Of a stretch of 39,824 nt of DNA, positions 24,309 through 32,407 are shown one piece after another. Positions within the stretch are counted from its first letter, which is position 1. Every line of letters starts with the position of its first letter. The stretch lies in contig DXGT01000034.1 of NCBI GenBank assembly GCA_019113785.1, forward strand, positions 1 through 39,824, given 5' to 3'. The DNA comes from Candidatus Ruthenibacterium merdigallinarum. GTDB lineage: Bacteria > Bacillota > Clostridia > Oscillospirales > Ruminococcaceae. Below the pieces are notes generated by a model that saw only the letters and a program-made list of their open reading frames with translations, searched no databases and was not told the origin of the DNA. A program made the translations under genes and the position numbers.

Positions 24309-24698
24309 TCAGTCCTTTACCACCGCCACGGCCTCGATCTCAATGGCCATGCCGTTGTTGAATTTCCCCACCTGCATCGTGCTGCGCGCGGGTGGGTCGT
24401 GCGGGAAATAGGCTTTGTACGTCTCGTTGAAAAGGTCAAACTGGTCGATGTCCGCCACGAACACCAGCGTTTTCACCACGTGCGCAAGGTCGGAACCCGC
24501 CTCTTCGAGGATCGCCGAGAGATTTTTCATGATCGCATGGGTCTGTGCGACGATGTCTCCCGGGGCAATCAGCTGCTGTGTGTTCGGATCGGTTGCCGTG
24601 ACGCCGGCGGTAAAAACCAAATCTCCCACGCGAAACGCCTGCGAATACCATCCGCCGGGGCGCGCCGCACGGTCGGTCTCAATTTTGATTTTTTCCAT
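24309..24698 (-). CDS. RidA family protein (reactive imine/enamine deaminase-like)
   Basis: GWYSQAFRVGDLVFTAGVTATDP, NLSAILEEAGSDLAHVVKTLVFVADI, DPPARSTMQVGKF (conserved Arg), MAIEIEAVAV (conserved Glu). Confidence 0.93.
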   Translation of the reverse strand: MEKIKIETDRAARPGGWYSQAFRVGDLVFTAGVTATDPNTQQLIAPGDIVAQTHAIMKNLSAILEEAGSDLAHVVKTLVFVADIDQFDLFNETYKAYFPHDPPARSTMQVGKFNNGMAIEIEAVAVVKD

Positions 24699-24714
24699 AC
24701 GGACGTCCTCCCTT

Positions 24715-26076
24715 TCACTGGCCCTGCGCACGTTTTTTATTCTTGTGCTCGAAGAAATAGTATGCGGGCAGGCCCGTCGCCAGCGCCACAACGCTCGCGA
24801 TGGTAGACGCGGCAGAAGAGCTCATAAAGGTGGAAACGAGCAGGATGCCGTTTGCCAGAATGGCGATCACCGTCATGACCTTCCACGCGGGGCAGCGCCA
24901 GCCGGGCTGATACGTCGCCTTTTTGTGGTGTACGAACAGCGTGCAGAACACCAGCATGTTCTTGACAAGGCAGATGAACGTGAAGTAACCGAGCAGGTCG
25001 TTGATGCCGGAAACGCACACCAGGATGATCGCATAACCCGCCTGCGCGATCAGCGCGAAGGAGGGCGTGTTGAACTTGGGATGCACTTCGGCAAAGCGGT
25101 GGTACCACAGGCCGTCCTTCGCCATGGCGTACTCGAGGCGGGGCTGGTACATCGTCGCGCCCGACATCGAACCCGTGATCACCAGGATAGCCAGCAGCGC
25201 CGTCACAACGCCGGCCGCCGCACCCACCATGGGGATCTTCGAAAACGCCAGCGCAATGGGTGCCGTGGAAGCCGCCAGTTCGTCGATGGGGATCAGGCCG
25301 GCCGCAATGGTGGACAGGCCCGCATACAGCAAAATCACGATGATGATGCAGTAGATCATGACCTTCGGCATCGTTTTGTGCGGGTCTTTCACCTCGCCCG
25401 TCATATAACATGCGCCGATGGCGCCGTCATAGCTCCAGGTCGTGGCAGCAATGCCGGCCAGCAGCGCCGCCGCGCCGGTCGCCGCGCCCGCCATGGGCGC
25501 CGCGGTGAGCAGCTCGCCCTTGATGAAGAACAAACCGACGCCGATCAAAATGAAGAACGGCAACATCTTCAGGCTGGTGATGAACGCCTGGAAACGCGCG
25601 CCCGCCTCCACGGAGCGGTAATGCAGCGTGGTGAAAATCAAAATGATGGCGATGGCCACGATGTTGATGATCAGCTGGCTGTTCATACCGGGGATGAAAA
25701 ACGCCAGATAGTTGGCGATGGCAAGGCTCATCACCGAGCAGGTGCACGGGTCGGTAGCCCAGAAAGCCAACCATCCGTTCAGGAACGCAACGGGGCGCCA
25801 GCCCGCTTCCTTCAGCCAGATGTACTGCCCGCCGTCCTCCGGATAGGCCGACGCCAATTCGGCGTACAGCAGGTTCTGCGGGATCATGATCAAACCGCCG
25901 ATCACGAACGCAAGGATCAGAATGGTCGCCGAGCCGGATTTGTTCGCGACGTCCGAAAGCGAAGAGAAAATGCCGGAGCCCACGGTGGTGCCGACCGCCA
26001 CGGCAAGCGCGGCGCCCAGCCCGAGTTTTCGCTTCAGCTCGCCCTGCGGCTTCGCTGTCTCTGTGTTTTTACCCAT
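24715..26076 (-). CDS. APC family amino acid/polyamine-type permease
   Basis: [42 protein letters not shown] and about 12 hydrophobic segments. Confidence 0.9.
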
Positions 26077-26111
26077 GAGAATACCTCCTTTGTCAATGGA
26101 TGCGCTTGCGA

Positions 26112-26864
26112 TTACTGCGCGGTGAAACCGCCGTCCACCATCAAATGCGTACCGGTGATGAAGGACGCCTCTTCGCTGGCGAGGAACGCCACGGCATACG
26201 CAATGTCGATGGGCTGGCCCAGACGCTTGAGCGGATAGCTCGCCACCAGGCGCTTCACTTCGCCCTCATAGTTGCCCGAGCGCGACATATCCTTGACGAA
26301 CGCCGGCGTCTCCGTACCGGAGGGGCACACCACGTTCACACGGATGCCGAACGGCGCAAGCTCCAGCGCAAGGCTCTTCGCGAACTGGATGACGCCGCCC
26401 TTGGAGGAGTTGTACGCCAGGCTTTCCACGCAGCCCACGATGCCCAGCTCGCTGCCGGTGCAGATGATCGCGCCGTGCCCGCTCTTTTTCAAAAGGGGGA
26501 GCGCATACTTGGCGCACAGGAAATACCCCTTGAGATTGACGCGCATCACTTTGTCCCACTCTTCCTCTGTGGTGTCCCAGAGGGTCTTGCTCAGCGAATA
26601 GGCCGCGTTGTTGAACAAAACGTCCACAACGCCGTATTTCTCTTCCACCATGTCGAAGAGGGCTTTCACCTGCGCGCTGTCGCTGACGTCTGTGCGGCAG
26701 AATACAGCCTTTCCGTTCAGCTGCTCCTCCAGCGCGCGGCCGCGCGCTTCGTCAAGGTCCGCAATGACGACCTGCGCGCCGCGCTCAACGAACAGGCGCA
26801 CCGTCGCCTCGCCAATTCCGCTTGCGCCGCCCGTGATGACGGCCACATAGTTTTTCAGATCCAT
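26112..26864 (-). CDS. Short-chain dehydrogenase/reductase
   Basis: [30 protein letters not shown] (YxxxK), [16 protein letters not shown] 26864 is 7 nt after GGAGG. Confidence 0.94.
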
Positions 26865-26921
26865 AACCATGCCTCCCTGTTTACAAAGATTCCGATTCCT
26901 TCCGCGCATTGCTTAAAACGT

Positions 26922-31033: not shown

Positions 31034-31046
31034 ATGCTCTTCCCCC

Positions 31047-32315
31047 TCACAGCGTCTCGCTGTCGGCCGCCTGCAAAAGCGTATTCGCCAAAACCTGCAC
31101 GCCGGCCGCCAGATCTTCTTTTGTGGTGAACTCCTCCGGGCAATGGCTGACGCCCTCGTTGGAACTGCGCAGAAAGATCATTCCCATCGGCATCAGCCGC
31201 GACATGTTCATCGAGTCGTGCGCCGGGAAGCTGACCATCTGCCGATGCGGGATATTCAGCGCGCCGGCCGCAGCCTCCATCATCTGCATCAGGCGCGGCG
31301 AAGAGGGCGCCGGCGCCAGGTCGCAGGTGCTGTGCACCGACCACGTCAGGCCCCGCTTTTCGCACTGCGCGCGGGTAAAGGCCATCAAGTCGTCGTACAG
31401 GGCCGTCCAATGCTGCGTGTCGCTGGCGCGGAAGTCCACCGGCACCACGCACCGGTCGGCGATGATGTTGTGCTCGCCGGGATGCGCCTCGATGTACCCC
31501 ACCGTCCCGCGCGAATCCACACCGCCGTCGCGCGCCAGACGTTCCACTTCACAGGCGACGGCGGCGGCCGCCGCCATAGCGTCGTGGCGGTCCTTCATCG
31601 CCATGCCGCCCGCATGCGCCTGTACGCCGTGGATCGTGATGTAAAACTGCTTGATGCCGGCGACGGCGCTGACCACCGCCAGCGGCAGGCCTTCATCCAG
31701 CAGATAGCGGCCCTGCTCGATGTGCATTTCCACGAACGCCGCATAGCGGGACGGGTCGATCTTGCTGTCGGCGATGCGGTCGGGGTCGGTGCCCATGCCG
31801 AATTCCCGCATGGCGTCGCACAGCAGCTGCCCGGTCTGACGGTGGCGCAGCGTCCTTGCGTAATCGTCCGGCAGCATGCCGCACATCGCCTTGCTGCCAA
31901 AGGTGCCGCCCAAAAACTGGCTCGCCTCTTCGTTGATAAACGCCACCATTTCCAAGGGACGCCTGGGCCTGTACGCGCCGGCGCGGATGGAACTGAGCGC
32001 TTCCAGCGCGCCCATCACGCCGGCAAGGCCGTCGAAATACCCGCCCTGCGGCACCGTGTCAAGGTGCGAGCCGCTGAGCACGGCCGCCGCGTCAGGGTCC
32101 GTGCCCTCCAGCCGCGCAAACACGTTGCCGACCGTGTCGATGCGGACGGTCAGTCCCTCTTCGCGCGCCCAGGCGCACAAAAGCTCCACCGCCTGCTTAT
32201 AAGCCGGTTCCCACGCGAAGCGGCTGATGCCGCCACGCGGGTCGGCGCCGATGGCGCCGATCTTGTGCAGCCGGTCCCACAGTCTGTCGGCATTGATCGA
32301 GACCATTTTGTTCAT
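31047..32315 (-). CDS. M20 family hydantoinase/carbamoylase-type amidase
   Basis: SGSHLDTVPQGGYFDGLAGVMGALEAL, VAFINEEASQFLGGTFGSKAM, VEMHIEQGRYL, GVQAHAGGMAMKDRHDAMAAAA; ATG 32315 is 7 nt after AGGAG. Confidence 0.92.
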   Translation of the reverse strand: MNKMVSINADRLWDRLHKIGAIGADPRGGISRFAWEPAYKQAVELLCAWAREEGLTVRIDTVGNVFARLEGTDPDAAAVLSGSHLDTVPQGGYFDGLAGVMGALEALSSIRAGAYRPRRPLEMVAFINEEASQFLGGTFGSKAMCGMLPDDYARTLRHRQTGQLLCDAMREFGMGTDPDRIADSKIDPSRYAAFVEMHIEQGRYLLDEGLPLAVVSAVAGIKQFYITIHGVQAHAGGMAMKDRHDAMAAAAAVACEVERLARDGGVDSRGTVGYIEAHPGEHNIIADRCVVPVDFRASDTQHWTALYDDLMAFTRAQCEKRGLTWSVHSTCDLAPAPSSPRLMQMMEAAAGALNIPHRQMVSFPAHDSMNMSRLMPMGMIFLRSSNEGVSHCPEEFTTKEDLAAGVQVLANTLLQAADSETL

Positions 32316-32363
32316 ACGCATGCTCCTTTGCTGTGAATTTTAAACGCGCGGAATTAATCGTTC

Positions 32364-32381
32364 AATTAATACGTGTTAATT
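32364..32381. promoter_or_regulatory. Putative LacI-family operator, site 2
   Basis: AATTAATACGTGTTAATT, 17 of 18 bases identical to site 1, central CG. Confidence 0.7.
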
Positions 32382-32407
32382 ATAACAAAATCACTTTTCT
32401 CCGTCAA
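32379..32407 (-). promoter_or_regulatory. Sigma-A promoter of the M20-amidohydrolase-cyclic amidohydrolase operon
   Basis: Minus strand TTGACG (32402-32407), 17-nt spacer, TATAAT (32379-32384). Confidence 0.85.

Follow-up and report, generated by a model that had tools for sequence, protein, structure and literature searches.

Seven genes on a 39,824-nucleotide stretch of contig DXGT01000034.1 (assembly GCA_019113785.1, Candidatus Ruthenibacterium merdigallinarum; hereafter the window) make up two operons and a LacI-family regulator gene, and the two operons form one regulon, because their promoters share a palindrome for which no further site was found in the genome. We give slightly less than an even chance to the proposal that this LacI-repressed regulon imports a cyclic-guanidine amino acid (one carrying a 2-amino-4-imidazolone) and degrades it hydrolytically, the likeliest substrate being an arginine Maillard product of the methylglyoxal-derived hydroimidazolone (MG-H1) type.

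In the route that we infer, both for the order of its steps and for its substrate, a permease of the FrlA clade would take up the cyclic-guanidine amino acid, and an amidohydrolase of the TRZ/ATZ type, here called TRZ-Q, would exchange the exocyclic C2 amine for oxygen, yielding a 5-substituted hydantoin and the freed amine, which for an arginine adduct would be ornithine. A cyclic amidohydrolase (CycAH) would then open the hydantoin ring to give an N-carbamoyl amino acid, from which an M20 carbamoylase would release the free amino acid, CO2 and NH3. For MG-H1, the predicted products are ornithine and 5-methylhydantoin, the latter passing through N-carbamoylalanine to alanine, and the short-chain dehydrogenase/reductase (SDR) and RidA-type protein of the cluster would perhaps act on side-chain or released carbonyl or imine products. 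An equivalent amine-for-oxygen exchange on triazines is carried out by AtzB/TrzN-type enzymes. The gene content supports the core route and an amino acid as the substrate, with MG-H1 as the most economical guess.

Seven genes in one regulon

All seven genes described in the initial annotation, which had been made from the letters of the sequence, were present and intact, with operon 1 reading SDR-APC-RidA and operon 2 reading M20-TRZ/ATZ-CycAH and converging on the 3′ end of lacI (Table 1; for the M20 gene, spacing from AAAGGAG favours a start at the second ATG, at 32315). The same annotation had taken these genes for a single regulated catabolic cluster, a view borne out by the operator common to both promoters. 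The chance expectation of this operator was 0.00 in shuffles of the window, and the only matches with up to three mismatches in the organism's own genome (2.18 Mb) were those at the two cluster promoters. Exact matches to a 15-base core in the 6.5-Mb genome of Schaedlerella arabinosiphila were likewise confined to the same two promoters, and in the genome of an uncultured member of the Clostridia (locus L001), with up to two mismatches allowed, a pair of sites inside the cluster was all that matched. The placement of the sites is typical of repression, and the cluster's own LacI protein probably binds them, an assignment strengthened by the joint conservation of the sites and the lacI gene. 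Regulators of the LacI family often sense sugars.

Table 1 Genes and regulatory elements of the cluster, with positions in the window.
Feature	Position	Strand	Remarks
RidA-type imine/enamine deaminase (TIGR00004)	24309..24698	-	Operon 1, last gene; synteny kept in L001 and L003
APC permease, FrlA clade (glycated-amino-acid type)	24715..26076	-	Operon 1
SDR oxidoreductase	26112..26864	-	First gene of operon 1; 84-85% identity to L001/L003 counterparts
Putative LacI-type operator AATTAAAACGTATTAATT (18-bp palindrome)	26922..26939	-	Just downstream of the operon 1 promoter
Sigma-70 promoter, TTGACA-17-TATAAT (12/12), operon 1	26949..26977	-	
LacI-family regulator (PurR/RbsR/GalR type)	27120..28151	+	Divergent from operon 1; 67-76% identical in L003/L001
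Cyclic amidohydrolase (CycAH; hydantoinase/allantoinase-like)	28217..29578	-	Last gene of operon 2
TRZ/ATZ-type amidohydrolase (TRZ-Q)	29594..31033	-	Operon 2; Q235 in place of the usual catalytic Glu
M20 N-carbamoyl-amino-acid amidohydrolase (TIGR01879)	31047..32321	-	First gene of operon 2
Second putative operator AATTAACACGTATTAATT, one-base variant of AATTAAAACGTATTAATT	32364..32381	-	Overlaps the -10 of operon 2
Sigma-70 promoter, TTGACG-17-TATAAT (11/12), operon 2	32379..32407	-	

Scanning the TRZ protein against 84,980 species genomes gave 60 loci, and gene context was surveyed at 74 sampled TRZ-Q loci besides the window, a sample in which cluster-bearing loci are few and related clusters are not independent. 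The search for the seven-gene set in other genomes, which the initial annotation had proposed as a check, recovered it complete, with order and orientation kept, in L001 and in S. arabinosiphila (L003), and in part at a third locus (L002), where M20-TRZ-CycAH is followed by the end of the contig. Because of this recurrence, the gene set is no chance collection. Protein identities between the window and these three loci were 65-85%, with the top values for the SDR and the permease, the SDR being the best conserved of the set. The cluster is accessory: among 199 genomes from the same family, only 2 have a close TRZ homologue, and the two genomes sampled from the same genus have none. The GC content of the cluster genes (58-67%, with operon 1 genes and lacI slightly lower) lies near the window mean of 65% and so gives no evident sign of recent transfer.

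TRZ-Q, its partner enzymes and the permease

The TRZ/ATZ-type enzyme reached no curated model, and its nearest solved proteins, at 150-200 bits, were S-adenosylhomocysteine/methylthioadenosine (SAH/MTA)-deaminase-like proteins and atrazine chlorohydrolase, with which it has fold and metal ligands in common (alignments showed metal-ligand motifs kept in both this enzyme and CycAH). It differs from these proteins at the glutamate that follows HxH (HxHxxE), which serves as a proton shuttle in the amidohydrolase superfamily and is present in them and in Escherichia coli SsnA. This residue is glutamine (Q235) in the window's protein, in at least 97% of 61 aligned family members and in 71 of the 72 matches of a motif scan, the remaining match being without the motif, so that every TRZ-Q member in which the motif was found carries the exchange. 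In addition, the nucleoside-side segment SNLKLASG of SAH deaminases reads SIAIIDG in TRZ-Q. The TRZ-Q amidohydrolases form a broad and clearly delimited family whose catalytic residue is altered and to which the libraries searched assign no function.

CycAH passes the cut-off of the allantoinase AllB model (TIGR03178; 363.7 versus 357.85 bits), as do the hydantoinase-like genes of two diverged loci described below, so this threshold may fail to tell substrates apart; CycAH does not retain the AWGGIAGLQ segment of E. coli AllB. The M20 protein passes the hydantoinase/carbamoylase model TIGR01879 (354.3 bits, cut-off 204) and falls short of the allantoate amidohydrolase model (384.7 bits, cut-off 399). 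Among structures, it is nearest to an N-carbamoyl-L-amino acid hydrolase (3n5f, 279.7 bits), 100 bits above its match to allantoate amidohydrolase (1z2l, 179.9 bits). Scores against the ErtD and ErtE models of ergothioneine utilisation (CycAH 291.3 and M20 349 bits) lay far under the respective cut-offs of 600 and 520.

The permease is 49% identical over 439 amino acids to E. coli FrlA, the fructoselysine/psicoselysine permease, and of all APC models the FrlA model scored best (472 bits, with 174 for the runner-up family). It misses the NCBIfam FrlA cut-off (NF008466; 472 versus 800 bits), and FrlB, FrlC and FrlD are not among the cluster genes, so we describe it by homology as a FrlA-clade relative, not an assigned FrlA. 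A 56% relative sits inside a complete frl operon with FrlB, FrlC and FrlD (locus L100, genome G564), and the permease thus probably belongs to a clade carrying amino acids with bulky sugar-derived adducts. A search for FrlA-like permeases in 148 genomes of the class and 399 of the phylum returned only the window's own gene and one frl operon. The L100 operon (2100-8043), from another member of the phylum, also holds two FrlC-like epimerases and an esterase-like gene, and its FrlA is 56-58% identical to the window permease and to E. coli FrlA.

Among the sampled loci, M20 and hydantoinase relatives occurred near TRZ-Q only at the three loci above, at a diverged locus (L101/L102) from a member of the same family and at a second diverged locus (L113); FrlA-like permeases occurred near it only in L001, L003 and L102 (L002 and L113 lie on short contigs). 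L101/L102 encodes a FrlA-like permease (379 bits for the FrlA model, 159 for the next), a class-V pyridoxal-phosphate protein, a MATE protein, a hydantoinase, an Asp/Glu/hydantoin racemase (PF01177), M20, a weakly isomerase-like protein, TRZ-Q and a PucR regulator, with an FGGY kinase nearby, and its TRZ, hydantoinase and M20 proteins are 48%, 32% and 32% identical to those of the window. L113 keeps the window's gene order, M20-TRZ-hydantoinase, at 33-48% identity, with no visible permease. The core route drawn in the initial annotation (permease, TRZ/ATZ, CycAH and M20) was therefore found again in L101/L102 and, permease aside, in L113. Because the M20 and hydantoinase proteins of both loci are no closer to their window counterparts than to E. 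coli AllC and AllB, the diverged loci look like separate, or very old, assemblies around TRZ-Q, in two or three events.

Where the full set is missing in Bacilli and Clostridia, TRZ-Q adjoins Lys/Arg/Orn-type ABC importers (12 strong loci), hydrolases of the arginine deiminase (ADI)/DDAH superfamily (9 loci), NhaC-type permeases (8 loci) or sodium:alanine symporters (L005, L108, L110 and L118, the last judged by eye; a final TRZ-Q search of the class returned L118 as its one new locus together with one already known). The ADI-like proteins align with arginine deiminase in the C-terminal Cys motif and in the HLD and GxRT segments. The FrlA-like permease and, in Bacilli, the arginine-type importers and ADI-like hydrolases next to TRZ-Q point to a cyclic-guanidine amino acid, in the simplest case an arginine glycation product, and the racemase in L101 suggests a hydantoin that is chiral at C5. 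The earlier judgement that the substrate could not be predicted by direct analogy is thus too pessimistic.

The ADI/DDAH-superfamily hydrolases amount to 15 genes at the nine loci (L011, at 4649-5632 and 7954-8910, L014, L024, L026, L027, L028, L030, L033 and L058), are often paired, and flank the ABC importer and TRZ-Q in Bacilli; two members that were scanned scored under every curated cut-off. Hydrolase, importer and TRZ-Q may constitute a second, likewise unassigned, arginine-derivative system.

Candidate substrates

Among other substrates, we give a modest chance to a different amino-acid-derived cyclic ureide or guanidine, or to a hydroimidazolone whose side chain is sugar-like (such as one derived from 3-deoxyglucosone), where the SDR and RidA would process the side chain or the released carbonyl or imine. 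Such a compound would give the SDR work, and that protein, besides its conservation, exceeds the cut-off of a 'glucose 1-dehydrogenase' subfamily model (238.8 versus 215 bits); the isomerase-like gene and FGGY kinase of L101 and the sugar sensing common in LacI regulators point the same way. On the other side, L101 has neither SDR nor RidA, and the side chain itself has no direct support. An allantoin-like route, in which TRZ-Q would deaminate an imino-hydantoin (for example, iminoallantoin from oxidised guanine) to allantoin, with CycAH as allantoinase and M20 as allantoate amidohydrolase, is unlikely. It would accommodate the AllB match of CycAH, the near miss of M20 at the allantoate amidohydrolase cut-off and, in L101, the PucR regulator and a racemase from the family that includes allantoin racemase. 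Against it stand the FrlA-type permease, the amino-acid and ADI contexts of TRZ-Q, the closer match of M20 to the L-carbamoylase structure, the lost AWGGIAGLQ segment and the passing of the AllB cut-off by the L101 and L113 genes. The cluster is also without ureidoglycolate or ureidoglycine genes, and AllG (oxalurate branch), present in S. arabinosiphila, is missing from the other three cluster genomes, among them that of the window.

Creatinine degradation, with TRZ-Q as creatinine deaminase, CycAH as 1-methylhydantoinase and M20 as N-carbamoylsarcosine amidohydrolase, would involve identical chemistry on a cyclic guanidine, and it has a precedent in Clostridium sp. FS41, for which ATP-independent methylhydantoinase activity and the chain of creatinine-route intermediates have been reported (PMC4417704). 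We nevertheless consider it quite unlikely, as 1-methylhydantoin has no stereocentre, which would make the L101 racemase pointless, and the permease is of the amino-acid-adduct type. A search for GrdB (sarcosine reductase) in the four cluster genomes gave no match, and its control gave no signal either. Very little probability attaches to an ergothioneine-type or thiohydantoin route, in which TRZ-Q would be a desulfurising hydrolase and CycAH and M20 would act as ErtD and ErtE: a glutamine in place of the proton shuttle could be compatible with a leaving group for which protonation is unnecessary, and both models do give scores. Ergothioneine itself was rejected, whereas a broader thiohydantoin role keeps a small probability, because those scores lie so far under the cut-offs and because PF00221 (aromatic lyase), which we take to be the family holding ergothionase, is absent from all four cluster genomes, in searches that detected the positive controls. 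True ErtD clusters were also sought across the class, and none was above the cut-off.

Several observations weigh against a cyclic-guanidine amino acid of the MG-H1 type. The SDR and RidA genes, co-operonic with the permease, do not fit into the MG-H1 scheme; the link between the FrlA clade and amino-acid-adduct transport is drawn from homology alone; and CycAH lies just above the allantoinase cut-off. L101 has a PucR-type regulator, and two open reading frames about 5 kb away were read by eye as purine-type permeases. The repeated co-assembly comes down to two or three independent events, no sampled locus combined ADI-like genes with the full cluster, and TRZ-Q may have a broader role, since most of its loci are without a hydantoinase and carbamoylase nearby. 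In favour of an MG-H1-type substrate, the racemase fits a chiral 5-substituted hydantoin, and an arginine-derived hydroimidazolone such as MG-H1 would satisfy every constraint that the proposed route sets.

It is possible, if on balance doubtful, that the cluster is a dedicated regulon for MG-H1-type hydroimidazolones, with TRZ-Q splitting ornithine off the imidazolone ring to leave the hydantoin and, beside arginine-type importers and ADI-like hydrolases, serving arginine-adduct salvage in many Bacillota. MG-H1 is among the major dietary glycation products (PMC6413015), and we found no bacterial MG-H1 catabolic pathway in the open-access literature. If the proposal is true, the removal or use of MG-H1 by gut bacteria could be studied with the genes of the cluster, its operator as a marker and S. 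arabinosiphila as a cultured host; were the substrate another, the TRZ-Q family, with its altered catalytic residue, would still be of interest.

Known systems and further loci

With the E. coli frlABCD operon for fructoselysine and psicoselysine, the cluster has a permease clade in common; it differs in being without the FrlB deglycase, FrlC epimerase and FrlD kinase, in having a LacI regulator where frl has FrlR, and in its predicted chemistry, which is hydrolytic, whereas that of frl consists of phosphorylation and deglycation. Hydantoin utilisation clusters share the cyclic amidohydrolase and M20 carbamoylase (and, in the diverged L101, the racemase), but here TRZ-Q appears to generate the hydantoin intracellularly out of a precursor that is taken up, and the cluster has a FrlA-type permease and a LacI repressor of its own. 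Ergothioneine utilisation has the same succession of a hydantoinase (ErtD) and an N-carbamoyl-amino-acid hydrolase (ErtE), and is set apart by the model scores and missing aromatic lyase described above. The overlap with the purine-linked ygeW-ygeY-hyuA/ssnA cluster of E. coli that the initial annotation had pointed out holds for enzyme superfamilies and does not extend to closeness. TRZ-Q is 24% identical to SsnA, with Gln for Glu, and scored 158.9 and 157.6 bits against the SsnA models NF005540 and TIGR03314 (cut-offs 444 and 455.5); CycAH is 28% identical to HyuA versus 34% to AllB; M20 gave no BLAST match to YgeY; and xdh, ygfK, ygeW and ygeX are not in the cluster. This direct comparison with the E. 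coli proteins ruled out the uric acid analogy.

Adjoining the cluster, at 20867-23961, are a ptsI-like gene and a fruK-like PfkB kinase gene; the latter (23047-23961) showed no synteny in L003 in the locus comparison, and we therefore place the pair outside the cluster. At L042-L049, L052, L054 and L056, which come from halophilic Bacillota and neighbours, the genes surrounding TRZ-Q are apparently unrelated, and the enzyme may accordingly have a single-enzyme salvage or repair role there. Upstream of the diverged cluster, L102 (443-8766) holds, as read by eye, two polysaccharide-deacetylase/PuuE-like genes, a transhydrogenase-like set, an M20 gene and a further Asp/Glu-racemase-like gene on the opposite strand. 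Finally, M20 proteins of about 540 amino acids lie beside TRZ-Q in L106 (7225-8841) and L108 (3886-5532); they presumably resemble RocB of arginine utilisation, and were confirmed as Pfam M20 only.

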